Positions 5,697-46,311 of a DNA stretch of 64,000 bases are shown in pieces. The stretch lies in assembly GCF_003522965.1 (NCBI RefSeq), contig NZ_CP031513.1, forward strand, positions 1,364,001 to 1,428,000, written 5' to 3'. The first letter of the stretch is position 1; every line of letters starts with the position of its first letter. Origin of the DNA: Bombilactobacillus bombi (GTDB taxonomy: Bacteria > Bacillota > Bacilli > Lactobacillales > Lactobacillaceae). The notes under the pieces are model-generated. The model was not told the origin of the DNA. It saw only the letters and a program-made list of their open reading frames with translations, and ran no database searches. The translations under genes were made by a program, and so were the position numbers.

Positions 5697-5885
5697 TTAG
5701 ATGAGGATTTCTAGCGGTATTTTCAGTTCATAATATAATTGATGAATTTCACTTTGGGTAAAATCAGAATGATGATTAATTTTACGATTTGTAGATGATA
5801 TTGAACGACCTATTACTTCAGCAACTTTTTGTTGAGAAATATGATGAGCTTTCAAATATCCCAATAATTCATTAGCTTCTTCCAT
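5697..5885 (-). CDS. Mini-HTH DNA-binding protein, copy A, upstream of adhesin 2
   Basis: A 62-residue protein consisting of little more than a helix-turn-helix of the Cro/XRE type. The segment QQKVAEVIGRSISSTNRKI gives helices 2-3, with SSTNRKI as the probable recognition helix. The tail IPLEILI is shared in form by three paralogues at 36303, 41438 and 46123. It is the most divergent of the four. It lies on the same strand just before adhesin 2 and probably regulates it, or is co-transcribed with it; this is inferred from position. No dimerisation or ligand domain is visible, so it would have to act as a small Cro-like dimer. Start ATG follows GAGGGGA. Confidence 0.8.
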   Translation of the reverse strand: MEEANELLGYLKAHHISQQKVAEVIGRSISSTNRKINHHSDFTQSEIHQLYYELKIPLEILI

Positions 5886-6440
5886 TGCTTAAATTCCCCT
5901 CAATTTTAAATTGATAGTAAATAATCAGCTTTTAACGCCTTGATATTAGACATCAAAAACAGACTAAATCGACAAAGTCCAAACTTTGCTATAAGTTGGA
6001 TTTTTCTTTTATTAGTAAAAGATGACATTCAAAAGCAAGGCAAACAAAATTATGATAAGGCATAAATAAATGCTATTTTGGAAATCGTTCTCACCACTCA
6101 TTACCAAAAAGTTATACAATGCTCCTTCTTTTATCTCTTGTTGCTATAATTTTCGTCATTAACTTACTACTAATAAAAAGATAAGCGCTTTAGTCTTTAT
6201 GCTTCCATACTTACTACTTTTCAAACTTATTATGTAGTTAAAATAATCTGAGAAACGAATCCTTTGAGATTCATTAGAACTATTATTATAACTAGATTAA
6301 TTATAATACTTTTTTATTTTAATGGCATATTTATTTTTTATACTTAACTTATGTTTTGTTTAAATCAGTAAAATGTTATTAAAGTCAAATTATAGAATTA
6401 ATAGTTTACTTATTGAAAATAAAACACAAACTTCTCATCA
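5886..6440. other. Long AT-rich intergenic region
   Basis: About 550 bases upstream of mini-HTH copy A with no convincing gene. It presumably holds the promoter of the mini-HTH/adhesin 2 unit on the minus strand. One 21-codon hydrophobic frame (6119-6184, plus strand) has no ribosome site and is not called. Confidence 0.5.
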
Positions 6441-6490
6441 AAAAAAAGTGCTCTCTAAATTGGATTTCATCTCCAACTTAGAGAGCACTT
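6441..6490 (-). terminator. Intrinsic terminator of adhesin 3
   Basis: A long stem AAGTGCTCTCTAA/TTAGAGAGCACTT, with the inner pair TTGGA/TCCAA, is followed on the minus strand by seven T residues. It lies 17 bases beyond the adhesin 3 stop. Confidence 0.92.
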
Positions 6491-6507
6491 CAAAATTATT
6501 AAGATGT

Positions 6508-9500
6508 TTAATTTGGACCTAAAGTCATTGTCCAAGTTAACGTAGCTTGATGTTTGCCTAAATTACTGGTTGATAAAGGTTTAGGTATTTTCAATACTGG
6601 TTCCATTATATTGTCACTGCCACCTGGTTTCCACAGTAAGAGCTTGTGGTCAGCTGGAAAACTCGAATTATCATATTTAAATTTCGTAATATTGTCATAG
6701 CTAATTGTATTAGTCTTTGGATCCTTATATTTATAATCTAAAAAATTAGAAAATAACTGATTAGAATCTTGAGAACTATCAGTAATTTCAGCAGTCAATA
6801 ATATCTTTTGCTTATCAGCTGTATCATTAAATATTGACAACTCTCCTTTAGCTGTTTTAGAAGCAATCTCTCCAGCAAAGTTTAGGTGTTTTTTGCCGTA
6901 ATCTATTGAAGTGGGCACATTTAAGACAACTGAACCCACGCTGTTAAAATTCAAACCGTCACTACGTCCTAATTCTTGAGTGGTTCCATCAGCGGCCTTA
7001 GATATAATCGTATCGGGACCAATAGTCACGGGAGTATTTTTAGTAGCTTCTACTTTAATTGTCCGTTTAATAGTGAATTGAATGCCCGCAGGAAATGCCT
7101 TCATACTACTATCCCAACCAAAGTAGCTCGGATCATAAACTTTTTGTGGATCAGCAGCTACGGGCTTCGTAGCTGTGATGGTTTTGCCGCTGGCATCTGT
7201 ATATGAGGCTGTAATCTGACCAGTACCACTATTGCTCCAATTTGGTGTATCACTAGTACTTTCGTGACCAAACATCACAGAATGAACAGGGGCATTCGCT
7301 TTAGGTGTATAAGTTGTAACCAAATTATAGCTGCCGTTTAAAATTTTCTGATGACCGTTTTTGTCCGTACCATAAGGGTTATTCGTAATCTTTTGCACCA
7401 CATTATACGCTGGCAGATTTAACACTTCATAATTCCAAATGAAGGTATCGCCGTCAGCTTTTTTATTTCGCTGATTCTCATCATAAGCCCTATTATTCGG
7501 AGAAGCATTGTCTTGTCCAATAAAAGTAAAACTATGCTTACCCACTATTGTAGCTTTTCCAATATTCCAACGAGTTTTAGTAACTTTTCTAATATTTAAC
7601 GGTTTAATTGTCGTAGTTATTGGTGTGGAATTATTTTTGGTTTGCCCACTTAAAGTTATTGCATCTGGCCCACCGTCACTTTTAGAACGATCATCCCCAT
7701 CATAATATTGGAAAGGAATTGCAATATCATCACCTAGTAAAAAGGACTGATCGTTATCTATCTTCATTGATAAGTTACGTACAAAAGTAATAGATAGTGG
7801 TGAAGATTGAAAATTCGTTACAGCACTAGTTTTAATTTGATCTGTTGCTTTCAAATGTAACGGTGCTTGTGGATGTTGCTTATTATATTTATCTAACAAA
7901 TCCCGTAGATTATACTGCACCTTATGGCGAAATCCCTCCAAGGCACCCGGTCCACTTAAATTAGGATTCCATTGACCATTGTCCCAAGTTACTTCTTTAT
8001 CTGACAAATACTTAGGATAAAGTTTATCAAAATCTGCCGCTGTTGGTTGTTGATATCTTTCCAACGGCTTACCTAAGTTGGGATTAGCGATTTTATTTCC
8101 CTGATCGTCATTTGCAAAGAGACTTAAATTCCCTAAATTATCATCTAAAATATTGGGAGTTACCGGATTAACATTTTCTGCAGTAGGGCCAATCAAACTA
8201 CTATCAGCTTTTTGTGTGGCTTCATATTGGCGATAATCATCATCATCAATATTTTTGAAATCACCTAAATCAATAGTACTCTTATCATCACGACAAACTT
8301 GAACCCTAATTTGTGGCGGAGCGGGATGAAATTCATCATATTGGGTATCATTCGTATAATCTTCCCATTCATCACCACCACTAGTAGCAGATATATTCCA
8401 ATCATCTCGGCTAGGATAAATAACATTAGATGGCCGATCTAATATTAGTGAAGGCCCTGGTAAATCAGACAAATTAATATACCGGAATTCTTTACCAAAC
8501 ATTTTAACCATAGCTTCTTTTAAGACGTCTAACTCATATTTTGGAGCTTGGATGACTTTACTACCATTTAAATAGAGCATTGGTGCTAATAAATTATGCG
8601 CAAAAGGCAAAGTTACTCGTTGAACTCTTATTGGCGGTTGACCATACATTCCCACTGAAACATTACCATATTCACTACTCGTAGTAGGATAACCTATAAT
8701 TTCACCATTACTACCGTTTATTAAGCCATTATCTCCTTCAGCTCTAATTTTAGTATCATAAGCATTGATATCTGCTCCACTAATACCAGCAACTAATGTG
8801 CTATTAGAAACAATTTTACCATTGGGCAATTTAATCCCATTGGGTACTTTAACCTCACTAGGTAGACCAGGAACTGAACCAACGCTGATAATTGTTCCCG
8901 TGTTAACATAAACCAAAGCACTATTTGGACAAGGATCATTTCTTAAATCCAAAGTAACATTTTTAGGATTGACAATATTAACTTTCATTGTATTCGCTGA
9001 ATATAAAAGATTTAATGGCTTATCACTACTATGATTTTTATCTGCAACTTCGAGATTAAAGTCTCCTCCAGTTCGAACATCAATACTCATATCGGGTCCC
9101 ACTGCCATTAAACCACCATTTTCGGGAGTATTATAATCACCTAAGTTATAAGCCTTAATACTAAACTTTCCGTGGGATAAATTAGCAGTCCCTCCAACAA
9201 AGTTAACTAAAGGATTATTTTTCAAAATTGCTCCCGCATTACTTGATTGATCATTGCCCAATCCACTATCAATATTTATTTCGCCCGGTTTAGAATCTTT
9301 GATATTATTATAAACCAATAGTGATGGCGAACTAGCCATATCAATAGCCCCACAAGGTTGTTTGGCGGCAGCAGCATGATTAAGATTAGGATCATTAATA
9401 TCATCATTATTGCAATGAATATTCAATTGTGCAGAACCATTCATTTCAATTTCTGGAACCAAACCATTATTTTGAGCGGCCATATAAATTCCCCAGGCCA

Positions 9501-10851
9501 TGCCTAATTGATTCGGACTATTCATCCCTCCGGGCGACTCAGGACTATCACCATGTGGATAAAGATTAACTACTGAACCATTTTCAAATGTTGCTTTCCC
9601 GGTTAAATACAAACATTGCCCATTGAATGTATAACCTGTGTAATGACAATCTTTAGCAAAAATAACTCGATCAACTTCAAAATTTTGTTGATTACCCGTT
9701 ATCCCGAGATTTTTTGTAATCCATTGGTAACTATCCCCTGGGATAAGGTAAGAATAAACTGAACGTACATTAACTGTACCGGCAATAGTAATTCCTGAAG
9801 TTTGACTACCTGTCCAAGAAAATTGAGAACCAGTATAATTAACGTCTCGATATGTAATCCAACTATAACCACCATTTAAGCCAGCTTTAGCAGTTTGAAT
9901 CTTATCATTGTTGGCCGGATCAGTATTCGGATCATAGTCAACATCGTTAGGATTTTTAGGTTCTGTATTCGCCAAATCATAGTTCGTGGCTAATCCTGTA
10001 TTACAACTAATAAATCCCCACCAACTAGTACCATAAATATCAAGATTTTCAACGGTCCAATTTTCCTTATATGGCTGAGTTGCCACTGGTTCTAGTTGTC
10101 TATCATGATGACCAGATAAAGCAAAGTTATTATAGCCCATATTAATACTATATTGTTTACCATCAATGATTAAATCATCATGACGAATATGGATATATTT
10201 ATATGAGTAAGATTTTCGAGCTTCTTCACCAGAACCACTAATATCTTGAGTTCTAGGACGATTAAAATAATAGGCTGTCGCTACATCATCAGGAAGATCT
10301 CTGATATCTAAGGAATTTTTGAGGTTAATTCGATGAATTTTGGAAACTGGTAATATCAAATTGGTCGCATAAGTTGGACTTTCGACGTTTAAGTTGGTAC
10401 CTAATGCTGCACCAGTAAATTTTTTCCACGCATCAGAATCTTGTGCATTAAAATTCCATTGGGGATTAGCTGGATCCCACAATGCTTCAAAAAAGCCTTT
10501 CCAAGTATAAACGTCGGCTATATAACCACCATTGCCATCACTAGATAATACGATATCTTGTTGATTGTCGGGTAACAAAGCATTGTTTTGATCCCGTAAA
10601 GCATAAACCGTCAAATATTCATCTGCAACATAAGCCATTCTGACATCATGCTGCGGTAATTCCCGTAACTGTGTGACATCTTTAATATTTACTGGAGAAG
10701 TTAGTGGTGTTGTATGTAATGATGGTACTTGTGTGTAACTAATTAAGTTATTTTTGTTAGCGTTTGCAATTGCCTGTACAAGCTGGGATTTTAAATACAA
10801 AACATTACAAACAATAAAAAATATAACAACAAGTTGAATACCCTTTTTCAT
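6508..10851 (-). CDS. Giant secreted beta-helix adhesin with WxL-type C-terminus (adhesin 3)
   Basis: A 1447-residue secreted protein. Signal peptide 1-28 (MKKGIQLVVIFF to VQA). Residues ~90-690 form the pectate-lyase-like beta-helix, with DLIIDGKQYSINMGYNNF, NLDIYGTSWWGFIS, FVGGTANLSHG and NPKNVTLDLR. Beta-sandwich modules follow. The C-terminal ~150 residues are WxL-like (VPTSIDYG at the start, LTWTMTLGPN at the end). The N-terminal half is closest to adhesin 4, while the last ~300 residues are almost the same as adhesin 2, so the gene looks mosaic. Unlike adhesins 2, 5 and 6 it has no mini-HTH directly upstream; the next gene upstream is the 69-residue membrane protein after mgtA. A possible TATAAT -10 box lies at 10908-10913. 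Confidence 0.88.
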   Translation of the reverse strand: MKKGIQLVVIFFIVCNVLYLKSQLVQAIANANKNNLISYTQVPSLHTTPLTSPVNIKDVTQLRELPQHDVRMAYVADEYLTVYALRDQNNALLPDNQQDIVLSSDGNGGYIADVYTWKGFFEALWDPANPQWNFNAQDSDAWKKFTGAALGTNLNVESPTYATNLILPVSKIHRINLKNSLDIRDLPDDVATAYYFNRPRTQDISGSGEEARKSYSYKYIHIRHDDLIIDGKQYSINMGYNNFALSGHHDRQLEPVATQPYKENWTVENLDIYGTSWWGFISCNTGLATNYDLANTEPKNPNDVDYDPNTDPANNDKIQTAKAGLNGGYSWITYRDVNYTGSQFSWTGSQTSGITIAGTVNVRSVYSYLIPGDSYQWITKNLGITGNQQNFEVDRVIFAKDCHYTGYTFNGQCLYLTGKATFENGSVVNLYPHGDSPESPGGMNSPNQLGMAWGIYMAAQNNGLVPEIEMNGSAQLNIHCNNDDINDPNLNHAAAAKQPCGAIDMASSPSLLVYNNIKDSKPGEINIDSGLGNDQSSNAGAILKNNPLVNFVGGTANLSHGKFSIKAYNLGDYNTPENGGLMAVGPDMSIDVRTGGDFNLEVADKNHSSDKPLNLLYSANTMKVNIVNPKNVTLDLRNDPCPNSALVYVNTGTIISVGSVPGLPSEVKVPNGIKLPNGKIVSNSTLVAGISGADINAYDTKIRAEGDNGLINGSNGEIIGYPTTSSEYGNVSVGMYGQPPIRVQRVTLPFAHNLLAPMLYLNGSKVIQAPKYELDVLKEAMVKMFGKEFRYINLSDLPGPSLILDRPSNVIYPSRDDWNISATSGGDEWEDYTNDTQYDEFHPAPPQIRVQVCRDDKSTIDLGDFKNIDDDDYRQYEATQKADSSLIGPTAENVNPVTPNILDDNLGNLSLFANDDQGNKIANPNLGKPLERYQQPTAADFDKLYPKYLSDKEVTWDNGQWNPNLSGPGALEGFRHKVQYNLRDLLDKYNKQHPQAPLHLKATDQIKTSAVTNFQSSPLSITFVRNLSMKIDNDQSFLLGDDIAIPFQYYDGDDRSKSDGGPDAITLSGQTKNNSTPITTTIKPLNIRKVTKTRWNIGKATIVGKHSFTFIGQDNASPNNRAYDENQRNKKADGDTFIWNYEVLNLPAYNVVQKITNNPYGTDKNGHQKILNGSYNLVTTYTPKANAPVHSVMFGHESTSDTPNWSNSGTGQITASYTDASGKTITATKPVAADPQKVYDPSYFGWDSSMKAFPAGIQFTIKRTIKVEATKNTPVTIGPDTIISKAADGTTQELGRSDGLNFNSVGSVVLNVPTSIDYGKKHLNFAGEIASKTAKGELSIFNDTADKQKILLTAEITDSSQDSNQLFSNFLDYKYKDPKTNTISYDNITKFKYDNSSFPADHKLLLWKPGGSDNIMEPVLKIPKPLSTSNLGKHQATLTWTMTLGPN
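6589..7437. repeat. Near-identical 849-bp block shared with 1331-2179
   Basis: The second copy of the shared 3' block. The reading frame and boundaries match the copy in adhesin 2. The right boundary falls just after the EVLNLPAYNVVQ module, where the two proteins become different. Confidence 0.88.
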
Positions 10852-14310: not shown

Positions 14311-17300
14311 TTATGGTCCGAAAACTAAGGACCAAGTAATATCAGCATTATAAGGCTTGCGCGTAATTATTGGTGTTTGCGGCAAGTCTAAATCTAAAAT
14401 TGGACCCTGAACTTGCTTATTCTTGTCAAACCATTGCTGAGAAATATTCACACCATTCGCATCAGCACTCAAATTAGAATTTTGATAGATAAGATAGTTA
14501 TTATCTAACAAATGTTCATTGCCTGAGCCATCCTGATAACGCAAAAATCTAGCAATTGCATTATTGGAATCAGGGGCAGAAACTGAAGCTGTGAGTTTAA
14601 CAGCATGTTCTTTAGTAGTATCGTTGGTTATTTTTAAATTGTTGGTTAGTTTTTTAATAGTCAACTTTCCTTGCTTTGGCAAATGATGCGAACCGTAATC
14701 AATTTGACCAGGAACATCTAATTTAATTATCCCAATCATGTTATAGCTCAAATCATTACTCTGACCTAAATCTTTATGAGTTTGGTCAGCAGCAATCGAA
14801 GTAATAATATTATTGCCAATCTTAACAGGATTATTTTTTCCAGCTGTTATCTCCACTTTGTTATTCACAATAAAACTAGTTCCTGCCAAAAAGTCATTAC
14901 CACTAAAACCAAAATCAGTAGGCGCGTATTCTTTATCTAAAGTAAACTCAATTGGCTTCGATTTTACTACCTTGCTGTTGGCGTCCTTATAAGCAGCCAC
15001 GATGGTTGAACCAGAATATTTCTCAATGGCACCAATATCTTGACTGCTGTCATGGCTGATTTTGATATGATGGACTGGGGCGTTGGCTTTAGGCGTAAAG
15101 GTAGTTGTTGAATGCTGCATACCACCTAAAATATTATCTCCATTCACTCCGGAAACTTTTTTAACACCTTGATAAGCAGGCAGATTCAACACTTTATAAT
15201 TCCAGATGATATCTTTTTCAATTTTATTAGTTTGATCATCAATACCTGAAAATACTAAACTATGTTCACCTGCAGTTTGGGTTTGCTTATCAATTGTCCA
15301 GTCATAAGAAGTGTCTGTATCATGCTTAATGTTGTCAATAGTAGCACCCGGAATTGGCTGACCATCAATCTTACCCGTAATAGTAATCGTTTTAGCATCG
15401 ACATCCCCATCATGATAATGAATTGGGACATGAATCGTATCACCTAAAAGATAATCTGGGGCTTTATCAGCTGTCATCACTAAATTAACCACCTTGGTAG
15501 TAGTAATAGGTGATGATTGATAGTTAGTCACTGCGCTCGTTTTTATTTGATCAGAAGATTTGAGATGTAATGGTAACTGTCCCGCTTTCAAATTCTGATT
15601 ATACTGATCCACTAAAGCATCTAAATCATACTTAAAAGTGTATTGCCCCTGTCCTTGAGGTGTCCACTTTATTTCATTATCTTGCAGATATTTCGGATTA
15701 TCTTGAGAATCTGTAACTGGTTTGCCTAAATTATCAGTATTAGAAACGTCTAGATTACCTTCATTATCTATCAGTAGATTAGGAGTAACGGGATAAACTG
15801 CAATATCGTTTGGGTCAGTAGTGGCTTTTTGCTTCGCCGATTCCTTATTAGTTTTTGTGCCTAAATCGATAATACTTCCATCTTTACGAACCACTTGTAC
15901 TTGTACAAGTGGTGGATCCGGTTTAAATATTGGATCTGAAGGATCTTCATTATCAGCTACTTGCCATGCTTTACCACCAACAGTACCACTAATAGTCCGA
16001 TTGGCTATCGGATAAACTGAATTCGATGTTTCTGTCAGTGAAGGACCAGGCAAATCAGAAAGTCGAATATAGCTAAATTCCTTGCCCTGCATATCTTCCA
16101 TCGCTGCCTTTAAAGTTTTCAACTCCAAATCATTAGGAGGATTATCTGGAGCTTGAATAATTTTAGAACCATTTAAATATAAATTCGCCGTAATAGCTCC
16201 ACGGGAAAAAGGTAAGACGAGTCGTTGCACTCGCACCGGCAAAGGTGTTGTTGTTCCTGCCGGATTACTAGAACTAACAGTCTCCCCCATACCTAAACTG
16301 ACGACTTTACCATAATTAGGATCTGAAGAAGCTACTCCAGGATTTCCTAATGATGTTTGTTGCTTATTATCACCAAAGGCACTAATTCGCGTATCATAAG
16401 CATTAATATCGGCACCACTTGCATTTGCATCACCAGAATTAATATAAACTAAAGCATTATTAGCACCTTGATGTTTCCGTAAATCTAAGGTAACATTTTT
16501 AGGATTCATAATATTAACATCCATTTTATCGCTTGCATATAACAAATGAATTATGGACTTAGGATTATTATCTTTATCACCAATAGAAATACTAAAATCC
16601 CCGCCGGTTTTGACATTAATCTTCATCCCACTGCCTACAGACATTAATCCACCATTTGTAGCATCTGTACCGTTAGTATAATCACCTAATTTGTTAGCTT
16701 TGACATGGAATGTACCATGAGAAAGATTGGCAATACCACCCATCATCTTAATTAATGGATAATTATTAAAAATTGTTCCCTCACTATCAATATTAATTGT
16801 TGGAGAATCATTACTATCAGGTGACTTATGAAATTGCAATTCTGAATTAGTACTCCCCATATAAATACCACCACAAGGTAATATTGCGTCAAAAATGTGG
16901 CCATCATCACTTGAAGGAACTTCATTAGGATCAAGGCCGTTACAGTGAATATTTAATTGCGCGCTACCATACATATTAATGGTCGGCGTCCCACTGGGCA
17001 TGGAAATACCATAAGCCATGCCTCCATCATGATGTTCAGCCGTATTAGTTCCGTGAGGATACAAATCAACTTTGGCTCCATCTCTAAAGACAGCACTACC
17101 AGTTAATTCCAGCGTATTTCCATTATAAGTGGTTCCAGTATAATTACAGTCTTTGCCAAATTCAACTTGATCAACTTCAAAGTTTTGTTGGTCATTACCA
17201 CCATGAGGAACAGCGGCATTATTATTACTATCAATGGCCAGATTATTAGATTCAGAAAGCCAAATAAAATCACTATCTGGTGCTCTAAAGGAACGTACAG

Positions 17301-29567: not shown

Positions 29568-30060
29568 TTAATCCAAACTATTAGTAGCACTCCAGGTCAT
29601 CTTGCCTGCATAATGTCCTGTTTTATTCGGTTGCGCCCTCGTCTGCAAAAAAAGACCCGATTTTTGATTTTGTTTACTATCCCACCAATTATCTAAAATA
29701 TGTTTCGTTTTTAGATTATCTGTTGGCGAACTCTTAATTGTATTAATGGTTGTTGTTTTATTCGTCAAAATTGTGAAAGATTTTATCGGTACTATTATTT
29801 AAAATATGATGACCATAATCAATAGTATCGGGAACTGTTAACAAGAGATAGTAAGGATTAGCAAATTTCAAAGATTTTGTTTGTGCTAATGGATGATCCA
29901 GCTCATTGCCAGCATGATTAACGGATGGCGTTTGCTTGTCATTAAAGATTAATGATTGTATTTGTATTACTGCTCAAAATTAGTATCCGACTGTGCAGAT
30001 TGAGCAACATTAACTTACCATGAAATGAAAAATACCAGTATTATAAATAAATTTGTAAAA
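29568..30060 (-). pseudogene. Remnant of a WxL-type surface-protein gene
   Basis: The last ~66 codons read NWWDS, GLFLQ and GHYAGKMTWSATNS, the C-terminal WxL pattern of adhesins 5 and 6. Just upstream, in another frame, VPDTIDYGHH matches the WxL-domain opening of the other adhesins (VPASIDYG). Further upstream, around 29980-30060, a hydrophobic stretch and VNVAQSAQS look like a signal-peptide end, again with stops and frame changes. So an adhesin gene has suffered an internal deletion and frameshifts. The ends of the relic are approximate. Confidence 0.72.
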
Positions 30061-34131: not shown

Positions 34132-35592
<1,461 letters not shown>

Positions 35593-35595
35593 TTA

Positions 35596-36302: not shown

Positions 36303-36488
36303 TTAAATAATTACATCAATTGGAATATTCAAAAGATCATGTAATTTTTGAATTTCACGCTTAGTAAAGTCAGTATGATTATTAATTTTTCGATTTGTCG
36401 CCGATAGCGAACGTCCAATAATTTTAGCAACTTGTTGTTGCTTGATATGATTTGCTTTCAGATACCCCAACAATTTATTTTCTTCCAT
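36303..36488 (-). CDS. Mini-HTH DNA-binding protein, copy B (orphan)
   Basis: 61-62 residues, nearly the same as copies C and D: LLGYLKANHIKQQQVAKIIG, then LSATNRKINNHTDFT and NIPIDVII. The second of two adjacent ATGs is used here; the first (36491) is equally possible. Unlike the other copies it is followed by its own terminator and not by an adhesin gene. It may have lost its partner, or may act in trans on the neighbouring adhesin loci with the same recognition helix (inference). Confidence 0.8.
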   Translation of the reverse strand: MEENKLLGYLKANHIKQQQVAKIIGRSLSATNRKINNHTDFTKREIQKLHDLLNIPIDVII

Positions 36489-36491
36489 CAT

Positions 36492-37196
36492 TAATTATTC
36501 CCCCCTGATTTTAAATAATTTGATTATCAAACAAATTTTAAAAACCAGCTAATAGCTTTACTATTTATAAGCCAATTTTTTATTTTGATAATTGAAACAA
36601 TATCGTATAATTGGAACATTGTCAATAATATAAATAATTTTTTTACGGCTTGAGATAATTCAGATATATAAATCCACAATAATATCATTTAGCTAATACT
36701 AACTATTAGTTAAAACGAAAGCAAGTACTAATCAACATTTTTTAAGCAAACCGATTCATAATCACTCCTTCAATTCAAAAATATTACAATTGGAATAAAA
36801 TTATTCTTCTTATGAAGTTGAGGTGACCTTGGTTAACTATTCGTTCGACAAAAACTTTTTGAAAATAGCAGCGGATAGTCAAGCGCTTACACAATGCTCA
36901 CTATATATTCAAAAATAGACAATTCATTAACTTTAAACAATAAAACTTTTTAATGAATTCAACATTTCATAGGAGTCAAATAATTATAATTTTCTAATTT
37001 CAAAACAACTATCCAACGAATAACATTTTTTATAAAATAAGAATGTTTGAGAACATATATCAACAAGTTAATTATCGTTTTCATTATGACCCCCTTAAGA
37101 TTCTATCCAGCGCAATAAAAATAGCTAATTCAAGTATAATATAGCATATTTGTTCTTTAAATTAAATGATTAATTTTTAATTTTTAAACAAAATTA
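36492..37196. other. Long AT-rich intergenic region
   Basis: About 700 bases between mini-HTH copy B and the adhesin 5 terminator. I see no gene. A 32-codon GTG frame at 36823-36918 is locally richer in G+C and reads like coding sequence (SFDKNFLKIAADSQAL), possibly debris of a lost gene. The promoter of mini-HTH copy B should lie at the left end. Confidence 0.45.
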
Positions 37197-37262
37197 AAAA
37201 CATTGTTCTCATTTTCTTATGGCCAAAATTTCATCCATAAGAAAAAATTCAAACAATGTTCT
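37197..37262 (-). terminator. Two-tier terminator of adhesin 5
   Basis: Outer arms AACATTGTT/AACAATGTT enclose an inner stem TTTTCTTATGG/CCATAAGAAAA. It lies 30 bases beyond the adhesin 5 stop. Adhesin 6 ends in a hairpin of the same design. Confidence 0.8.
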
Positions 37263-37291
37263 AATTATATCTGGCTGAATTAATTATTTTG

Positions 37292-40200
37292 TTAAATACT
37301 ATTGGATAAATTCCAAATAATCTTACCTTTATATTTCCCCCAATGAGCGTCAGTTGCTTTACTTTTCAGAAATACACCAGCTACTTGCTTATCGTTATCC
37401 CACCAGTCATTACTTAAGTGCGTATTAACTGGACTATTCTGGGAACCATCAATTCTTGCAGGTAGTTGCTTATCATATATAGGTACGGATATCGGTTGTC
37501 CGTTATTATCATAGAAAGATACTTCACGGTGCGGCGCGACTGTTTGCTTAAAAAACAACGCATTCTTCCATATATTATTGCTATCATCAGTCAAATCATT
37601 TTGCAATTTCATAGTTACCTGTAAATGGTTGTTCGCAATTGGATCATAAACTAACAACAAGTTGTCATAAACACTCTGTTTATTAGTTAGAGAATAAGTG
37701 GTATCAGTAAATTTACCTACTCGATGCTTGCCAAAGTCTAAGCGGTTCGGCACCGTTAATTGAAGATAATAAACATTTCCAATCTTAATTTGGCCACTTT
37801 CCCCTAATTGGATATCTTCATGACTGCCATCGCTATGCGTAAAGTCTGTCTGCATATGCAGCGAGGCAAGTTTCAAATCTTTAGTCGGCTTCAAAACTCG
37901 GACATTCGTATCCACTTCAAAACTTGTTCCTTGTGGAAAACTACCGCCTACGGCAATTAAACCAAAATCTTTAGGCAACACTTTAATCGGATTACCATTG
38001 GTAATATAGGTATGCGTTTGTGATTTACCCGCCTTATTCGTGGCTATCACTTTGACTACATGATTAACCTGTACATCTGGCGAATCTGTATCAGCAGCAG
38101 TCCCATCACCTCGAGTAAAGGTGACATTATCAATGGTTGCTGTGTCATCCTTTGGTGTAAAGAAGTCCTTTTCGGTATAATTACCCATTCCCAGACGGTC
38201 GGGATTAGTGAATCCCGCTTCTGTACTGAATCGCTTATCCTGGCCTTGATACAGCTGTTTATTTCCAGAATAGCCTGGCAAATTCAGCACCGTATACTTA
38301 TAAGAGATTAATTGGTCTGCCAAGATATTGCCACCATCATCAAAGGCATTGGTTGGACTTTGTCCACCCTGATCATCAGTACCATAAAATTTTAATTCGT
38401 AGTCTTTGGTACTGCCGGTAACTTTATTCGGAGGTGTTGCCGGAATCGTCCAAGTAAGCTGATTGGACTTATTATCACCCTTAATTGTCAAATCACTACT
38501 AAAGTCCGCCGCATTCGGTTTTAAAGTTGAGTGAGCCGTCGGATTCAGATAGCCTTTAACATTCATCTGCTTCGAAGAAGCAATATTTTCTTGATAAATC
38601 AGTGGTACTTGAATATCATCACCTAAAACGTAATATTTTTTGGCTTGCTTATCATTAAGATTCAGATACAAACTACTGATTTTGACAGTTTTAACCACTG
38701 ACGCTTGAAAATTATTCACCACCGTTATTTGTAATTTATCATTAGGTACTAAAGTCCCAATTGGATTAGCAGCATTATTCTTATCGTATTCTGCCAGCAG
38801 CTTATCTACATCCAACTGGAAATGACCTGTATTATCCCAAGTGACTACCTTGGAATCAGTTACATAACGCCAAGGCTGTGCCAACAAATTGCCTTTGGCT
38901 GTCAAATCACTAGTAGCTATTCCAGAACTATCATGATGGTGTTCAAACCACAGTCCTTCATCAGGTTCAACTGCTGTGGGTGTTGGTGCTGGCGTAGCAA
39001 AGATATTTCCTGGATCTAAGGAATCTTTATTCGGATTCAACTCCGCAACTGTGGCCCCACTATCGCCCAAATCAATCGGAGTACTAGAACCTGTGCGAGT
39101 CAAAGTGACATGCAGACGTGCACCGATAGCAGGTTGACGTGCAGTATTATCATCTACAACATCACCTTCAATTAAACGATGTTGCGGATCAATAGTTGGT
39201 AAGGGCTTGGCAATCACTTGTCCCGGATCAATTGCAGTTGCATCAAACACTCTAAATTGTGGGAAGCTACTATTATTATTAGGAGATAGTTGGGCTAAAA
39301 GTTGTTTTAATTTAACCAGATTAGTCGCACTTGTTTGCGCGGACATTGTAGTACCATTAGCACTACTTTGCAATCTATCACTAGAAAAAGGTAAGTTCAA
39401 ATATTGAAATTGTGTATCTCTTATAGAGATATCCGGACCTGAAGGGTCATCAGGATTATCTGCAAGCGCCGTTTCTTTAACACCATGCATTTCAACATTC
39501 CCTGTACCATGAAGCAGAACCGAAGCTTTATTAGGGCGCTCTAAATGAAGCTTCTTTGGTTTATAAATATTAATTCTACAAGAACCCCTACTATTAATTA
39601 AATAAACTCGCGATGTCGCTTTAGGAGCGCTCATTGAAAAACTCCCATTGCGATCAACAAAAATATTAGCTGCATTGGAAGTAGACAAGAGACTAGCTGT
39701 TGCCCCATTATTATTACCCAAATTCTTAGCTTCTACATTCATCTCGCCTTCACCAATATTGGCTTGACCACCAGTCAAATTAATTAAATTATTCGAACCA
39801 ATGGCACCATCACTTTTAATATTAATCACCGAGTTAGAATTAGTAACATATTGTAAATTACCGCGACCAGATAAAGATAATGCTAGTGGTGTAGCATAAA
39901 ATCCATCAGTCATTCTTGAATCATACCAAGTATCATTCTTATCTTTTAAAATTAATCCTTTATCAGCAGTTGGGATACTATCAGCTAAGGGCTTGCGGTC
40001 AACTATAATATTTAACTGTGCATTATGTTGCATCGTTAAATCACCTTGATTGCCAACAACTGCTAACCCAATAGGTGTATTACCTGCAGGAACTACTCCT
40101 GCTTCAGCTGCGGAATTATGGTTAGGTCCACCACGCATATAATGTGGATGTAATTCAACATTAGCTCTGTCGCCAACTGTTACATTACCTGTAACTAAAA

Positions 40201-41353
40201 GTACGTGGCCACCATACGTATAACCTTTAAAATTACAATCTGCATCAAAATTAATATTCTGACCTTCTAATAATTGTTGAGCAGAACCAGTAATAGTTCC
40301 TTGACAACTATATACATTACCATCAGGACCAATATAAGAATACAGTGCATAACCTGTACAATCACCTTGAAAATGGACTGTAACTCCAGAGTTACTATAT
40401 AATAACTGCGATCCATAATAAGTTATATCTTTATACGTAAGTACAGTGGGTACCGAAGTCATATTCTCAGTTCTAATCGGACCAAAAAAATTACTGCCAT
40501 ATATTTTCATATTATTTAAAGTTATATTTGCAGCGCGACTTTGTCTTAAAAAAATACTAAAATTTCCTAAATTCCAAGTATGTCCTTGGCCATCAATAGT
40601 AAAAGTCGACTGTACTTTTCCTGATATTTCAGTAGTAAGATCGTCGGGCTTATTCGAAGAATGAATAATCCTCAAATTCCATTCTCCACCATCTTGTCCT
40701 GAATATTTTCCCGAATGAGGTGCTGATGGGCTCGTTAATGAACCATAATTATTAATTCGCGAAAAATTCAACATGTAAGGATCATGATTAACATTATTAA
40801 TAGCTCCCGTACTGCGAACAGTGGCACCTGCTCCAGTCGATGGAGTAGCAAAGGTAATATCAGGATCATTGGCCAAATTAGGAATATCGATATCTTTAGT
40901 TAAAACGATTTTAGTAATATCTGAATATCCCCATGTACCAGTCCCACTACGAATGTCTATATTTTTATAATCCGTACCAAATCCATAGATAGCATGCAGA
41001 AGTTGTTTAGCATTATGCACATAAGCTATTTTGCCTCCATCTGGATTATCTGTCAGATAAAAATCATTATTGGTTGGCCAAGGAATAGTGCTGTCATCAA
41101 CAACAAAAGTTGAGGGCATCCCTAATCTTTCTATATGATTATTTGTTGAGCGAGACTGTGTAGGCAAAATATTTTGCCTAAAATTAACCAGATTGTTGAT
41201 ATCATAATTGGCATCAGAAAAAGCAGCTGCATATCCAACATGGCCCCCCACAGCTAAGAAAAAGCTACTAATTAAAAAAGCAATAACTATTTGAGTTTTT
41301 TGAATACTTGTTTTCCAATATGTATTCACACTCTTTGGTTTTGTATCAATCAT
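37292..41353 (-). CDS. Giant secreted beta-helix adhesin with WxL-type C-terminus (adhesin 5)
   Basis: 1353 residues; ATG preceded by GAGGTG. A long signal peptide ends near residue 44 (FLISSFFLAVGGHVGYAAA). Beta-helix region ~75-640, with STFTIDGQGHTWNLGNFSIF, NMKIYGSNFFGPI, LTGGQANIGEG and INIYKPKKLHLERP. Beta-sandwich modules ~690-1200. The C-terminal WxL-type domain has VPNRLDFGKHRV at ~1213 and ends in IIWNLSNSI, preceded by NDWWDNDKQVAGVFL. It pairs with adhesin 6, sharing a nearly identical ~350-residue stretch, while the N-terminal halves differ. A mini-HTH gene lies 84 bases upstream. Surface adhesion is inferred from the domain family. Confidence 0.88.
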   Translation of the reverse strand: MIDTKPKSVNTYWKTSIQKTQIVIAFLISSFFLAVGGHVGYAAAFSDANYDINNLVNFRQNILPTQSRSTNNHIERLGMPSTFVVDDSTIPWPTNNDFYLTDNPDGGKIAYVHNAKQLLHAIYGFGTDYKNIDIRSGTGTWGYSDITKIVLTKDIDIPNLANDPDITFATPSTGAGATVRSTGAINNVNHDPYMLNFSRINNYGSLTSPSAPHSGKYSGQDGGEWNLRIIHSSNKPDDLTTEISGKVQSTFTIDGQGHTWNLGNFSIFLRQSRAANITLNNMKIYGSNFFGPIRTENMTSVPTVLTYKDITYYGSQLLYSNSGVTVHFQGDCTGYALYSYIGPDGNVYSCQGTITGSAQQLLEGQNINFDADCNFKGYTYGGHVLLVTGNVTVGDRANVELHPHYMRGGPNHNSAAEAGVVPAGNTPIGLAVVGNQGDLTMQHNAQLNIIVDRKPLADSIPTADKGLILKDKNDTWYDSRMTDGFYATPLALSLSGRGNLQYVTNSNSVINIKSDGAIGSNNLINLTGGQANIGEGEMNVEAKNLGNNNGATASLLSTSNAANIFVDRNGSFSMSAPKATSRVYLINSRGSCRINIYKPKKLHLERPNKASVLLHGTGNVEMHGVKETALADNPDDPSGPDISIRDTQFQYLNLPFSSDRLQSSANGTTMSAQTSATNLVKLKQLLAQLSPNNNSSFPQFRVFDATAIDPGQVIAKPLPTIDPQHRLIEGDVVDDNTARQPAIGARLHVTLTRTGSSTPIDLGDSGATVAELNPNKDSLDPGNIFATPAPTPTAVEPDEGLWFEHHHDSSGIATSDLTAKGNLLAQPWRYVTDSKVVTWDNTGHFQLDVDKLLAEYDKNNAANPIGTLVPNDKLQITVVNNFQASVVKTVKISSLYLNLNDKQAKKYYVLGDDIQVPLIYQENIASSKQMNVKGYLNPTAHSTLKPNAADFSSDLTIKGDNKSNQLTWTIPATPPNKVTGSTKDYELKFYGTDDQGGQSPTNAFDDGGNILADQLISYKYTVLNLPGYSGNKQLYQGQDKRFSTEAGFTNPDRLGMGNYTEKDFFTPKDDTATIDNVTFTRGDGTAADTDSPDVQVNHVVKVIATNKAGKSQTHTYITNGNPIKVLPKDFGLIAVGGSFPQGTSFEVDTNVRVLKPTKDLKLASLHMQTDFTHSDGSHEDIQLGESGQIKIGNVYYLQLTVPNRLDFGKHRVGKFTDTTYSLTNKQSVYDNLLLVYDPIANNHLQVTMKLQNDLTDDSNNIWKNALFFKQTVAPHREVSFYDNNGQPISVPIYDKQLPARIDGSQNSPVNTHLSNDWWDNDKQVAGVFLKSKATDAHWGKYKGKIIWNLSNSI
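37641..38690. repeat. Near-identical ~1.05-kb block shared with 42482-43531
   Basis: Adhesin 5 and adhesin 6 are aligned at a constant offset of 4841 here with very few substitutions. Similarity falls sharply on both sides, although the reading frame and domain layout continue. It looks like a recent gene-conversion tract. Confidence 0.9.
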
Positions 41354-41437: not shown

Positions 41438-41626
41438 TCACAATAAAATGTCAATCGGTATCTTTAAAATATCGTGTAATCTTTGAATTTCTTGTCTCGT
41501 GAAATCACTATGATTATTAATTTTACGGTTCGTAGATGATAAGGAACGCTCAATAATCTCTGCAACTTGTTGTTGCTTAATATGATTAGCCTTTAAATAA
41601 CCTAATAATTTGTTTTCTTCTTTCAT
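41438..41626 (-). CDS. Mini-HTH DNA-binding protein, copy C, upstream of adhesin 5
   Basis: 62 residues from the ATG at 41626, chosen because AAAGGTGA lies 7 bases upstream; an earlier in-frame ATG at 41641 overlaps that region. Helix-turn-helix IKQQQVAEIIERSLSSTNRKI; the usual Gly before the turn (IIG) is Glu here. Tail KIPIDILL. It precedes adhesin 5 by 84 bases on the same strand and is probably transcribed with it. Likely a Cro-like autoregulator or adhesin regulator. Confidence 0.82.
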   Translation of the reverse strand: MKEENKLLGYLKANHIKQQQVAEIIERSLSSTNRKINNHSDFTRQEIQRLHDILKIPIDILL

Positions 41627-42141: not shown

Positions 42142-45100
42142 TTAAATACTATTAGTTAAATTCCATGTTATTTGACCTTTATATTTCCCCCAATGAGCAT
42201 CAGTTGGCTTACTTTTTAGAAAAACACCGGCAACTTGCTTGTCAGAATTGTTCCACCAATTTTCACTTAAGTGCGTATTAACTGGTAAATTACCAGAATT
42301 TCCTACTGTTGTAGAATATACGGGAACAGCAACAGGATTGCCACTACTATCCTTCTGGAAAAATTGGGCCGCAGAAGCACTTGTCTGTTTAAAGAACAAT
42401 GCATTTTCCCATATATCATTATTATCATTAGTCAAGTCGCTTTGCAGTTGCATAGTGACTTTGAGCTGATTTCTAGTAATCGGATCATAAACTAACAACA
42501 AGTTGTCATAAACACTCTGTTTATTAGTTAGAGAATAAGTGGTATCAGTAAATTTACCTACTCGATGCTTGCCAAAGTCTAAGCGGTTCGGCACCGTTAA
42601 TTGAAGATAATAAACATTCCCAATCTTAATCTGCCCGCTTTCCCCTAATTGGATATCTTCATGACTGCCATCACTATGTGTAAAGTCTGTCTGCATATGC
42701 AGTGAGGCGAGTTTCAAATCTTTAGTCGGCTTCAAAACTCGGACATTCGTATCCACTTCAAAACTTGTTCCTTGTGGGAAACTACCGCCTACGGCAATTA
42801 AACCAAAATCTTTAGGCAACACTTTAATCGAATTACCATTGGTAATATAGGTATGCGTTTGTGATTTACCCGCCTTATTCGTGGCTATCACTTTGACTAC
42901 ATGATTAACCTGTACATCTGGCGAATCTGTATCAGCAGCAGTCCCATCACCTCGAGTAAAGGTGACATTATCAATGGTTGCTGTGTCATCCTTTGGTGTA
43001 AAGAAGTCCTTTTCGGTGTAATTCCCCATTCCTAAACGGTCGGGATTAGTGAATCCCGCTTCTGTACTGAATCGCTTATCCTGGCCTTGATACAGCTGTT
43101 TATTTCCAGAATAGCCTGGCAAATTCAACACCGTATACTTATAAGAGATTAATTGATCTGCCAAAATATTGCCACTATCATCAAAGGCATTGGTAGGACT
43201 TTGTCCGCCCTGATCATCAGTACCATAAAATTTTAATTCATAGTCTTGGGTACTGCCGGTAACTTTATTCGGAGGTGTTGCCGGAATCGTCCAAGTAAGC
43301 TGATTGGACTTATTATCACCCTTAATTGTAAAGTCACTACTAAAGTCAGCCGCATTCGGTTTTAAAGTTGAGTGAGCCGTCGGATTCAGATAGCCTTTAA
43401 CATTCATCTGCTTTGAGGAAGCAATATTTTCTTGATAAATCAGTGGTACTTGAATATCATCACCTAAAACGTAATATTTTTTGGCTTGCTTATCATTAAG
43501 ATTCAGATACAGACTACTGATTTTGACAGTATAAACAGTTGACGCTTGAAAGTTATCAACTGCAGTTACAGTTAGCTTATCACTTGGTAATAGTGTGCCT
43601 ATTTTATTTACTGCAGTCTTATCATATGTCCGGACAATATCATCAATGTCTAAAGAAAAGTTATTATTATCTTTCCCACTCCAAGTAAGAGCAGAAGATG
43701 TTACATATTTCCATGGTTTAGACAATCTGTTACCAGGACTTGTCAAAGAATCTTGTACTACACCTGCAATATGATGGTCTGCAAACCAGCTAACTTTATC
43801 AGGTTCTACTGCAGCATAATTAGGCGTTGATAAATTTTGCGGATCTATGGAATCCAAATCTGGATCTAGCTTCGTAATGTCATCACTAGTATCGCCTAAA
43901 TCAATTGCAGTAGGTGAACCTGCTCTTTGCAGCGTAACGTGTAGACGAGCATTATTAAACGGCTGAGTTTTATCATCAGCATCAACTACACTCCCAGTGA
44001 TTTTTCTTTGTACCGGATCAATATTAAATTGATTTTTAGTAATATCTGGGCCATCATCAATTGTAGTTACATCAATTTTTTCAAATTGTTTAAATTGTGT
44101 ATTAGATGGATTCGTTGGATTCGTTGATAATGATTGCAAAATTATATTTAACTTTTTCAAAGCACTGGTACTAGTTTGAGCATTCATTATATTACCATTA
44201 CTACTACTATACATATAATTACCATAAAACGGTAACTTTAAATATTGAAATGGAATAGTTATTGGCTTACCAGTTCCTGTTGGATTAGGAATAATCTCTT
44301 TAACATCCCTCATTTCTACACTACCAGTACCATAAATAATATTACTTCCAGGATTAGTATTGGGACGAGCAATACTTAAGCTCTTAGGCTTATAAACATT
44401 GACTTTAAAAGTCCCTGAACTATAAACCATATTAACATTACCTGTAGCTTTAGGTGCTTGAATATCAAATGAACCATTTTTATTAACAAACACTTTACCA
44501 GTAGAGCCTAATTGGACTAAATTAACATTACTTGCGCCTAAATTATTGGCAGCTATATGCATATTACCTTCACCAATATCTATAACCCCACCTTGAATCA
44601 AGGCGATTCCGTATCCTGCCAAAGCGCCATCACTAGTTAAATTAATTGTTGAATTAGAATGATCAACATACTGAATTTTACTATTGGCAGCACTTAAAAT
44701 TAGGGCAGTGGCAGGAGTCCTATAGCCAGTATCCATAATCGGATCATGATAAACAGTATCAGGATTAAGCTTGGTTAATACGTCAGCTAATGGCTTGCGA
44801 TCAACTTGAATATTCAGTTGAGCATTTTTACCGATTTTTAATTGTGGTACTGATCCAGCAGTACCACCACCAAGCATATAAATACCCGCACCGGTACTAT
44901 TACCATAAGAATCTTCAGGAATAAGATTAACCGCAGTAGTAATTCCGGTAGTAGGAGTACCAACTCCAGTATGGGGATAAAGGGTGACTTTAGCGCCATC
45001 ATGCACGGTCGCTCCCCCTGTTAATTCCAAAACATTTCCCGCATAAGTATAACCGTTATAAATACAATCTTCACCAAAATCTACATTCTGCGCTTGCATA

Positions 45101-46095
45101 TTCTGTTGGTTGCCATCACCCTGACAATGATAAGATCTAGAATCTCCCGGCACATAATACTCTCTTAGAGAAAAGGCATTAATGGTACCATAAGTTTCAA
45201 TATTAACATTTCCACTACTATACAAAAATTGAGAACCATAATAATTAACATCGCGATATATTTCCTGCGTATTACCACGGCCCCAAATATATCCATAAAA
45301 GCTACTATTATAGATAGTGGCATTTTGTAATGCAATCGTCATTTTATAATTACCACCGACATCACAAGTTTGAATAGCCATATTACCTACATTTATAGAG
45401 TGATTATTAGCTTCAATAGTTAAGGTGTTGTCCTTTGAAGGCCGTTGTATTGCCATTGTTCTTGGAGCATCACCCCCCGTATGATTGCCAGAAATACCGC
45501 TTAATAAATTTCCCCAAATGGGTAGTGTAAATTTATTATTGGTATTGGGATAATTCATTGTGATATCAGGATTATTAGGATTCGGATTAGTTGGACTAGT
45601 AGCAGAAGTATTAACCAAATCAATATCGGCTACTAAAACAACTTTAGTAATATTTGATTTGTTTGTATAAGTGTCACTATTAGGAACTTGATCGTAATTT
45701 TGTGGATTAGGATCCCCTACGCTACTATACCCATAAATAGCATGTAAATATTGATTAGGTGTCCTAACGTAAGCAATGTATCCACCATTAGAATTAGGGT
45801 CTAAATCTGGCGCTAAAGCATAATCATTGTTGGCAGGCCAGACCAGATTGCTTGGTACTGGAGTTTGCGAACGAACATTTGCAGTATTGATGTTATTATT
45901 AGAAACCTTCGGAATGAGAACACCTAAGCCCTGAGAATTAATCAGCGTTGTAATATCCATATCCAAATCATTGGCTCGCACGTCAGATTTAGTAACCTGA
46001 TAATTATTAAACAATCCAAAAATAACTATTACTAATAATAAGGGAAATAGAAATAACTTTTTTTCTTTAAAATAACTACTGCACAATTTAAACAT
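42142..46095 (-). CDS. Giant secreted beta-helix adhesin with WxL-type C-terminus (adhesin 6)
   Basis: 1317 residues; ATG preceded by GGAAG. Signal peptide ~1-41 (LFLFPLLLVIVIFGLF to VRAND). Beta-helix region ~90-620, with LTIEANNHSINVGNMAIQ, NATIYNSSFYGYIWG, VIDIGEGNMHI and KVNVYKPKSLSIARP. Beta-sandwich modules follow. The WxL-type C-terminus has VPNRLDFGKHRV, then SENWWNNSDKQVAGVFL and ITWNLTNSI. N-terminal Cys residues sit at YHCQGDGNQQN and EDCIYNGYTY, as in adhesin 2. A mini-HTH gene lies only 27 bases upstream, so the two almost certainly share a transcript. Confidence 0.88.
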   Translation of the reverse strand: MFKLCSSYFKEKKLFLFPLLLVIVIFGLFNNYQVTKSDVRANDLDMDITTLINSQGLGVLIPKVSNNNINTANVRSQTPVPSNLVWPANNDYALAPDLDPNSNGGYIAYVRTPNQYLHAIYGYSSVGDPNPQNYDQVPNSDTYTNKSNITKVVLVADIDLVNTSATSPTNPNPNNPDITMNYPNTNNKFTLPIWGNLLSGISGNHTGGDAPRTMAIQRPSKDNTLTIEANNHSINVGNMAIQTCDVGGNYKMTIALQNATIYNSSFYGYIWGRGNTQEIYRDVNYYGSQFLYSSGNVNIETYGTINAFSLREYYVPGDSRSYHCQGDGNQQNMQAQNVDFGEDCIYNGYTYAGNVLELTGGATVHDGAKVTLYPHTGVGTPTTGITTAVNLIPEDSYGNSTGAGIYMLGGGTAGSVPQLKIGKNAQLNIQVDRKPLADVLTKLNPDTVYHDPIMDTGYRTPATALILSAANSKIQYVDHSNSTINLTSDGALAGYGIALIQGGVIDIGEGNMHIAANNLGASNVNLVQLGSTGKVFVNKNGSFDIQAPKATGNVNMVYSSGTFKVNVYKPKSLSIARPNTNPGSNIIYGTGSVEMRDVKEIIPNPTGTGKPITIPFQYLKLPFYGNYMYSSSNGNIMNAQTSTSALKKLNIILQSLSTNPTNPSNTQFKQFEKIDVTTIDDGPDITKNQFNIDPVQRKITGSVVDADDKTQPFNNARLHVTLQRAGSPTAIDLGDTSDDITKLDPDLDSIDPQNLSTPNYAAVEPDKVSWFADHHIAGVVQDSLTSPGNRLSKPWKYVTSSALTWSGKDNNNFSLDIDDIVRTYDKTAVNKIGTLLPSDKLTVTAVDNFQASTVYTVKISSLYLNLNDKQAKKYYVLGDDIQVPLIYQENIASSKQMNVKGYLNPTAHSTLKPNAADFSSDFTIKGDNKSNQLTWTIPATPPNKVTGSTQDYELKFYGTDDQGGQSPTNAFDDSGNILADQLISYKYTVLNLPGYSGNKQLYQGQDKRFSTEAGFTNPDRLGMGNYTEKDFFTPKDDTATIDNVTFTRGDGTAADTDSPDVQVNHVVKVIATNKAGKSQTHTYITNGNSIKVLPKDFGLIAVGGSFPQGTSFEVDTNVRVLKPTKDLKLASLHMQTDFTHSDGSHEDIQLGESGQIKIGNVYYLQLTVPNRLDFGKHRVGKFTDTTYSLTNKQSVYDNLLLVYDPITRNQLKVTMQLQSDLTNDNNDIWENALFFKQTSASAAQFFQKDSSGNPVAVPVYSTTVGNSGNLPVNTHLSENWWNNSDKQVAGVFLKSKPTDAHWGKYKGQITWNLTNSI
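42482..43531. repeat. Near-identical ~1.05-kb block shared with 37641-38690
   Basis: The second copy of the adhesin 5/6 shared block. It covers the beta-sandwich module from KISSLYLNLNDKQ to the middle of the WxL-type domain (YDPI). Confidence 0.9.
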
Positions 46096-46122
46096 TAAAA
46101 AACTTCCTTTTAGTAATAAAAA

Positions 46123-46311
46123 TCAAATAATAATATCAATCGGTATATTTAAAGAACTATGCAATTTTTTAATTTCTCTTTTAGTAAAATCACTATGATT
46201 GTTAATTTTGCGATTTGTCGTAGATAATGAGCGGCCAATAATCTCTGCTACCTGTTGTTGTTTAATATGATTAGCTTTAAGGTAGCCTAATAATTTGTTT
46301 TCCTCGTTCAA
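46123..46311 (-). CDS. Mini-HTH DNA-binding protein, copy D, upstream of adhesin 6
   Basis: 62 residues. The start is a TTG preceded by GGAGG at 7 bases; no ATG fits. HTH IKQQQVAEIIGRSLSTTNRKI, tail NIPIDIII. The 27-base gap to adhesin 6 makes this the clearest mini-HTH/adhesin operon. A weak TTG start would keep the regulator level low compared with the adhesin. It is divergent from another small HTH gene (46479) across a region with a GTCCTA/TAGGAC inverted repeat. Confidence 0.84.
   Translation of the reverse strand: MNEENKLLGYLKANHIKQQQVAEIIGRSLSTTNRKINNHSDFTKREIKKLHSSLNIPIDIII

Follow-up and report, generated by a model that had tools for sequence, protein, structure and literature searches.

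Predicted Cro-like regulators ahead of giant adhesin genes in Bombilactobacillus bombi, and their relation to a divergent XRE module of Lactobacillaceae

Small helix-turn-helix genes among giant adhesin genes

Bombilactobacillus is a bee-associated genus of lactobacilli. We examined a 64,000-nucleotide stretch of the Bombilactobacillus bombi chromosome (hereafter the window; C1:1364001-1428000 of a 1.84 Mb source genome, G000, assembled as one contig) in which genes for very small helix-turn-helix (HTH) proteins, here called mini-HTHs, are interspersed with genes for giant adhesins. A first-pass annotation made from the letters alone had pointed out four HTH paralogues of 62 residues, at positions 5697, 36303, 41438 and 46123, and all four are borne out as minus-strand members of one family: mini-HTH A (46123-46311, with a TTG start), mini-HTH B (41438-41626, for whose open reading frame (ORF) an alternative start is possible five codons earlier), an orphan copy (36303-36491) and mini-HTH F (5697-5885). 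The other three copies are 61-68% identical to the one at 5697, and the nearly invariant recognition helix that had been described, S-x-TNRKIN-x-H, is indeed common to all four.

Three of these genes lie directly before a same-strand giant adhesin gene, at distances that agree with the 27-131 bases given earlier. Mini-HTH A is the first gene before adhesin A (42142-46095, minus strand; 1317 amino acids, with a Pectate_lyase_5 match, a hydrophobic N terminus and a C-terminal W-N-L), from whose ORF it is separated by 27 bases (46123/46095). Mini-HTH B precedes adhesin B (37292-41353, minus strand; 1353 amino acids, Pectate_lyase_5) by 84 bases (41438/41353), and mini-HTH F stands before adhesin F (1250-5581, minus strand; 1443 amino acids when read from TTG), with a gap of 115 bases to the TTG at 5581 or 130 bases to the ATG at 5566, which is the likely start. 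On the minus strand, no terminator-like hairpin was found in any of the three gaps. The fourth copy, 800 bp downstream of adhesin B, is an orphan as had been proposed: what follows it is a strong terminator-like hairpin (36287-36252, minus strand) and then a gene (34132-35580) for a family 1 glycosyl hydrolase, not an adhesin gene. Between adhesin B and the orphan, at 36500-37290, promoter-like and ribosome-binding-like stretches that lead into very short ORFs can be made out by eye, possibly a decayed cassette.

The whole genome holds seven mini-HTH copies. The three outside the window (C1:1306495, C1:1124732 and C1:1788576) are each directly 5′ of a same-strand giant adhesin ORF, so that six of the seven copies occupy this position, an association that exceeds chance for a family with seven members genome-wide. 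Adjoining the pair at C1:1306495 is a gene for a peptide-binding lipoprotein-like product, split into two ORFs (L008:11250-12902, plus strand).

Adhesin genes outnumber the mini-HTHs. Four of the ten in this genome (E, G, H and J) have neither a mini-HTH nor a remnant of one upstream in a six-frame profile scan, and three of these four fall at least partly in the window: adhesin H (6508-10851, minus strand; 1447 amino acids), adhesin J (14311-18402, minus strand; 1363 amino acids) and adhesin E, which is cut by the window edge (2-1087, minus strand; in full C1:1360918-1365087, 1389 amino acids). The description of these proteins as pectate-lyase-like holds for the three paired window adhesins, which score 33.0, 37.3 and 33.0 bits against the Pfam Pectate_lyase_5 cutoff of 24.3; unpaired adhesin H falls just under it with 22.9 bits, and the paired adhesins of B. 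bombi XV6 and of a further Bombilactobacillus genome, G006, have no Pfam match at E ≤ 0.1. The label WxL fares less uniformly. Of 24 adhesins examined, 21 have a W-x-[LVM] tripeptide close to the C-terminal end, at a distance of 7-9 residues (one of the three exceptions is represented by its first piece only), and the Pfam WxL model is not matched at E ≤ 1 in the four adhesins scanned. Some adhesin genes appear damaged: the one at C1:1788820-1793131 (L010:8821-13132, plus strand) is broken, likely by a frameshift, into two ORFs (964 and 476 codons), and at about 29574-29934 of the window (minus strand) there are two weak, short adhesin-like remnants, signs of adhesin gene decay.

Mini-HTHs resemble Cro/C1-type proteins and have relatives across Lactobacillaceae

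The predicted fold of the mini-HTH is a compact five-helix domain (helices at residues 6-13, 18-25, 29-38, 44-54 and 58-61; pLDDT 87.5). Foldseek gives matches to SinR, C.AhdI and CylR2 with probabilities of 0.97-1.00 and also lists a TP901-1 CI-MOR complex chain; methylphosphonate synthase chains head the list, and no structural match reaches E ≤ 0.001. The four window proteins stay below the Pfam gathering cutoffs of HTH_3, BetR, HTH_26 and DUF739, the best being BetR with 21.1 bits (cutoff 21.6), while HTH_3 gives 19.5 bits (cutoff 23). On the strength of these models, the mini-HTH is a predicted DNA-binding protein of the Cro/C1 type, with a Cro/MOR-like character.

With a profile built from 16 copies, relatives were detected in 76 of 397 Lactobacillaceae genomes at E ≤ 1e-5; a set of 23 genomes from the same order but outside Lactobacillaceae gave no match at E ≤ 0.001. 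A search of 148 genomes from the whole order (same-family genomes included) at E ≤ 1e-8 returned only the window's own mini-HTHs, and a named-record search returned three loci in Bombilactobacillus bombi XV6 (Lactobacillaceae) and one in Furfurilactobacillus milii. Relatives also occur in 12 phage records (best 47% identity, E 8e-7) and in two Latilactobacillus curvatus plasmid records (47.7% identity), and the mini-HTHs match phage repressor families weakly. Because phages hold distant relatives that are up to 47% identical, descent of the mini-HTH from a phage Cro gene is possible; we noticed no phage genes near the copies in the window.

Coupling to giant adhesins is a feature of Bombilactobacillus in this sample

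For a broader view we examined 79 mini-HTH ORFs in fetched loci, of which 68 are from outside the genus and 11 are the intact copies of seven Bombilactobacillus genomes. The 68 were drawn from 86 places, the other 18 all having E values of 1.2e-11 or weaker, and they include close relatives (L069 and L070 are the same protein). Outside the genus, inspection revealed an ORF for a secreted or surface protein within 150 bp behind the mini-HTH, on the same strand, for only four of the 68 copies. Two of these ORFs carry a KxYKxGKxW signal peptide (L059, gap 12; L075, overlap of 4), one has an SlpA domain (L122, gap 100), and the last resembles that of L075 by eye and is frameshifted (L076, gap 54). 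At four further loci (L083, L113, L116 and L120) the gene behind the mini-HTH appears, by eye, to be of membrane or envelope type, and many of the other copies are solitary or near housekeeping genes. In this sample, then, strong coupling between mini-HTH and giant adhesin is confined to Bombilactobacillus.

At seven loci from several genera (L074, L075, L076, L060, L121, L125 and L126) the mini-HTH, mostly together with an XRE gene, adjoins a pgk-like gene; at L074 it lies between this gene and a TIM gene.

Within the genus, the intact copies are distributed as seven in G000, three in B. bombi XV6 (G002; with one further decayed copy) and one in G006, and adhesin matches were obtained in five of the seven genomes. 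Of the 11 intact copies, eight immediately precede an adhesin ORF, with gaps of 27-254 bp, and the remaining three sit about 50 to 800 bp behind one; of these three, a copy at a contig edge follows only a 117-codon end piece, which was called adhesin from its C terminus. The pairing that the first-pass annotation had put forward for checking in related genomes thus recurs among close relatives and is rare in the sample beyond the genus.

Mini-HTH copies are maintained while their adhesins change

The order XRE gene, mini-HTH, adhesin, mini-HTH, adhesin, orphan mini-HTH and sugar-utilisation (bgl-type) genes is the same in G000 and B. bombi XV6, where the middle mini-HTH is the decayed one and the orphan has its counterpart at the same place. 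Behind the mini-HTH and adhesin genes of this segment, the first gene in G000 encodes a family 1 glycosyl hydrolase and that in B. bombi XV6 a CAT_RBD plus PRD antiterminator; at the syntenic bgl site of G005, another member of the genus, there are an adhesin gene and similar sugar genes and no mini-HTH. At locus A, by which we mean mini-HTH A with its neighbors, the mini-HTHs of G000 and B. bombi XV6 are 90% identical, the XRE proteins are 57% identical, and the adhesins align at only 18%. Comparison of the two genomes therefore shows that a mini-HTH can persist without its adhesin or with a different one: the orphan is kept in both, and the cargo of locus A differs.

The substitution pattern conforms to this picture of persistence. 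Across ten pairs of mini-HTHs, which touch all 11 copies of the genus, the proportion of amino-acid-changing differences (pN) is 0.05-0.16 and that of silent differences (pS) is 0.56-0.92; these are simple counts in which silent sites are often saturated. The locus A pair gives pN 0.05 and pS 0.81, and the orphan pair gives pN 0.10 and pS 0.57. Because amino-acid changes are few and silent ones many, we conclude that the copies are maintained, the orphan included. Distances among mini-HTHs and among their adhesins correlate over the six pairs of G000 (r 0.49; 22 of 720 permutations as good). A mini-HTH/adhesin co-phylogeny over eight pairs was tried and discarded (r 0.07; 13851 of 40320 permutations as good).

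A divergent XRE partner and a candidate operator

Locus A has an additional component. An XRE gene (46479-46730, plus strand; 83 amino acids) is transcribed away from mini-HTH A across an intergenic region of 167 bp, so that two divergent HTH genes share a short promoter region in the layout of a CI/MOR-type switch. The noteworthy Pfam matches of the XRE protein are HTH_3-like only, all below cutoff, and no CI-like C-terminal oligomerisation domain was found in its 83 residues. Mini-HTH A is the sole copy in G000 that keeps such a partner; the other six loci, those of mini-HTHs B and F among them, are without one.

This arrangement is the rule elsewhere. A divergent XRE gene lies within 350 bp of the mini-HTH for 59 of the 68 copies outside the genus and for two of the 11 inside it, related species not being independent in these counts or in those for the operator below. 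The gap measures 91-167 bp in 49 of the 61 pairs (it is shorter in ten and longer in two), and 53 of the 59 outside-genus partners have 75-113 residues, the other six having 216-334. A profile built from 12 of the divergent partners matched 66 of the 1590 ORFs of 60-360 codons in the fetched loci, and 61 of these 66 are partners. Locus L074 was scored as lacking an XRE gene by the ORF rule, though its upstream DNA reads like one by eye. Comparison across these loci shows that, in other Lactobacillaceae, the mini-HTH is usually one half, apparently the Cro-like one, of a divergent XRE/mini two-gene module.

XRE genes of the partner type also occur alone. A second one in the window (55733-55960, plus strand) is without a mini-HTH and adjoins a coaBC-type flavoprotein gene (54416-55618, minus strand), and B. 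bombi XV6 yields a similar match at G002:C76:1321-1545.

Just downstream of the promoter-like -10 element of mini-HTH A is a candidate operator, the dyad TGTCCTAAATATAGGACA at 46350-46367. In an exact-match scan of G000, the sequence TGTCCTNNNNNNAGGACA occurs once, at this place in the locus A promoter region. A dyad of TCC and GGA half-sites, 6-8 bp apart, recurs in XRE/mini intergenic regions. Our strict rule, TCC-N6-8-GGA, was defined after viewing the sequences, and the unbiased test is a separate dyad enumeration over 27 dereplicated intergenic regions, in which the TCC/GGA type ranks top with p 8e-13; the lowest p among 60 shuffled sets is 2e-7. The strict dyad is present in 20 of these 27 regions and begins within 60 bp of the mini-HTH ORF start in 17 of the 20. 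A palindromic candidate operator, of which the phage has several per region, is thus common in the module.

The dyad is far from evenly distributed. Within 100 bp upstream of the mini-HTH, and outside the genus, the strict form occurs for 43 of the 59 copies with an XRE partner, where 1.10 would be expected, and for one of the nine partnerless copies; inside the genus it occurs for one of the two XRE-paired copies and for none of the nine partnerless ones, which include the six in G000. Three XRE-less copies of one genus have, respectively, a strict dyad, one stretched by a base and one with a changed base, and a partnerless copy of B. bombi XV6 (C72) has TCC-N7/8-GGA at -110, inside the end of the preceding ORF.

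Bombilactobacillus sequences alone would not have singled out this element. Across the regions upstream of its 11 copies, dyad enumeration, the only method applied here for a shared dyad, identified none beyond what shuffled sequences give, and single inverted repeats upstream of each copy are no better than shuffles (P 0.095 to 0.38 for those reported). Of the 55 pairwise local alignments of these regions, just two exceed every shuffle: that of locus A with its B. bombi XV6 counterpart, which does so well, and that of locus A with G006. Another three pairs have P 0.01-0.02, about chance level. The dyad at locus A is therefore meaningful only because of the comparison across genera. A one-mismatch version at 52166-52183 of the window was set aside, at least one such site being expected by chance from a base-composition estimate, and with up to two mismatches a reversed control pattern has 51 matches versus 31 for the dyad pattern. 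The site at 52166-52183 overlaps the start of a small membrane-protein-like ORF that precedes a family 2 glycosyltransferase gene (52275-53588, plus strand).

How the dispersed copies might act

The account that we favor, to which we give a little under an even chance, is one of copied mini-HTH/adhesin cassettes whose mini-HTHs act in trans mainly on the XRE/mini switch of locus A. In Bombilactobacillus the divergent XRE/mini module is located at locus A, with an adhesin gene behind the mini-HTH. The mini-HTH/adhesin part would have been copied to further sites, leaving the XRE gene and the dyad behind. Each mini-HTH would be co-transcribed with its adhesin and so report the expression of that adhesin, and the copies would tip the switch at locus A more than they act on their own promoters. 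Action at locus A is suggested by the nearly unchanged recognition helix, together with the fact that the only exact dyad is found there.

Several observations weigh against this account. First, the dyad goes with the XRE gene: it accompanies 44 of the 61 copies that have this gene and one of the 18 that lack it, so that its main binder may be the XRE protein and not the mini-HTH. Second, the dyad of B. bombi XV6 at the same place in locus A is imperfect, GTCCTAAAATTAGTAC. Third, G006 has a mini-HTH and an adhesin with no adjoining XRE gene and no dyad within 100 bp, the nearest resemblance being a looser-placed TCC-N8-GGA at -199; because of these two absences, trans action on a locus A leaves the G006 copy unexplained. 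Finally, adhesins do not need a mini-HTH, since G005 has adhesins and no mini-HTH that we could find, and B. bombi XV6 has an intact adhesin gene behind its decayed mini-HTH.

One alternative, which we regard as somewhat unlikely, is that each mini-HTH is a local autoregulator of its own mini-HTH/adhesin operon in the style of PapB and TosR, with sites too AT-rich or variable to be seen and little action elsewhere. The operon-like layout, with its hairpin-free gaps in the window, speaks for such a role, as do the similar promoter cores of locus A and G006 and the correlated mini-HTH/adhesin distances in G000, which are expected for cassettes copied together. Against it, no dyad exceeds shuffles in the 11 upstream regions, for all the near identity of the recognition helices, and the orphan is conserved with no adhesin behind it.

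Trans action on locus A can also be drawn out into a many-to-one switchboard, a version that we consider doubtful. Here six dispersed mini-HTHs, each with an adhesin or as an orphan, would converge on the locus A switch, and the expression of the other adhesins would be counted as mini-HTH dose and would flip locus A, whose cargo is exchangeable and whose regulator stays. If true, this would be a Gram-positive adhesin hierarchy made from a domesticated two-repressor module that outlives its cargo.

The first-pass annotation had proposed instead that every regulator binds all of the adhesin control regions, allowing cross-talk or one-at-a-time expression of surface proteins. This is a natural thought given the near-identical recognition helices, the conserved orphan and the precedent of PapB, FocB and TosR (PMC12388093, PMC5956150). 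Yet the module's dyad is found near one of the seven G000 copies only, that of locus A, and at none of 16 adhesins that lack an intact mini-HTH directly upstream (strict form, 260 bp upstream of the ORF start searched; G000, G002, G003 and G005). Because the six partnerless copies have no near dyad, and no other dyad is common to the regions of the genus, the sequences lend no support to binding at every promoter, and we judge the proposal improbable.

That the mini-HTHs are passengers left over from the duplication of adhesin cassettes, or from phage Cro genes, with no present regulatory role, would fit the decayed copy before an intact adhesin in B. bombi XV6 and the distant phage relatives, but is contradicted by the excess of silent over amino-acid changes in all ten pairs and seems to us very unlikely indeed.

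Comparison with known systems

Small regulators linked to adhesin genes have been described in Gram-negative bacteria, so the earlier statement that no system with this layout is known needs to be narrowed. TosR, the regulator of the TosA nonfimbrial adhesin of E. coli, is a small HTH protein of the PapB family whose gene heads the operon tosRCBDAEF; papB itself is divergent from papI, a second regulator gene, and relatives of PapB are present at several adhesin loci, where cross-talk is known and where they bind AT-rich sites together with Lrp and H-NS (PMC12388093, PMC5956150). Like these genes, the mini-HTH is by position the first gene before the adhesin for six of the seven copies in G000. 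Unlike in the PapB family, the partner and the dyad are kept at one of the seven loci only. None of the Pfam matches that the four window mini-HTHs have at E ≤ 1 is to PapB, no direct comparison with a PapB profile having been made.

The MrpJ regulators differ from mini-HTHs in operon place and length. MrpJ paralogues belong to fimbrial operons of Proteus and Morganella; M. morganii has 13, of which 11 are orphan, and MrpJ represses motility (PMC3521468). The likeness lies in a set of HTH paralogues of which some are adhesin-linked and others orphan; the difference is that a divergent XRE partner goes unmentioned for MrpJ in the passages cited here. Taken together, these parallels suggest that the layout may work in parts like the PapB/TosR and MrpJ regulators, and homology to PapB is not indicated.

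An arrangement comparable to that of locus A is found in phages. In the switch of TP901-1 and phage 13, cI and mor are divergent and share palindromic operators, and MOR is a small protein that serves as repressor and antirepressor (PMC8516035). Locus A likewise has a divergent regulator pair with a palindromic candidate operator. Unlike the window's XRE protein, an HTH protein of 83 residues, CI has C-terminal domains, and the gene behind the mini-HTH is an adhesin gene.

We take Bombilactobacillus to belong to the Firm-4 group. Firm-4 bee-gut lactobacilli have lineage-specific surface proteins with WxL domains, and csc/WxL surface protein clusters are known from them and from L. plantarum; the cluster described is DUF916/DUF3324/WxL, and the term 'helix-turn-helix' has no occurrence in the main text of this source (PMC4449606). 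Among the matches listed in the open-access literature, none describes the XRE/dyad/mini-HTH module or its pairing with adhesins in Lactobacillaceae, and to this extent the claim of novelty stands. The arrangement itself is real and recurs; it looks like a new form of adhesin-linked HTH regulation, one that seems to derive from the divergent XRE/mini module of many Lactobacillaceae.

To our knowledge, the way in which Gram-positive symbionts of the gut select from their many giant surface proteins is little understood, and this module may show how these bacteria decide which one to display. The XRE/dyad/mini-HTH module furthermore gives otherwise generic helix-turn-helix genes of many Lactobacillaceae a place in a circuit. 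With one intact switch, six partnerless copies and a readable candidate operator in a single genome, an adhesin hierarchy becomes directly testable.

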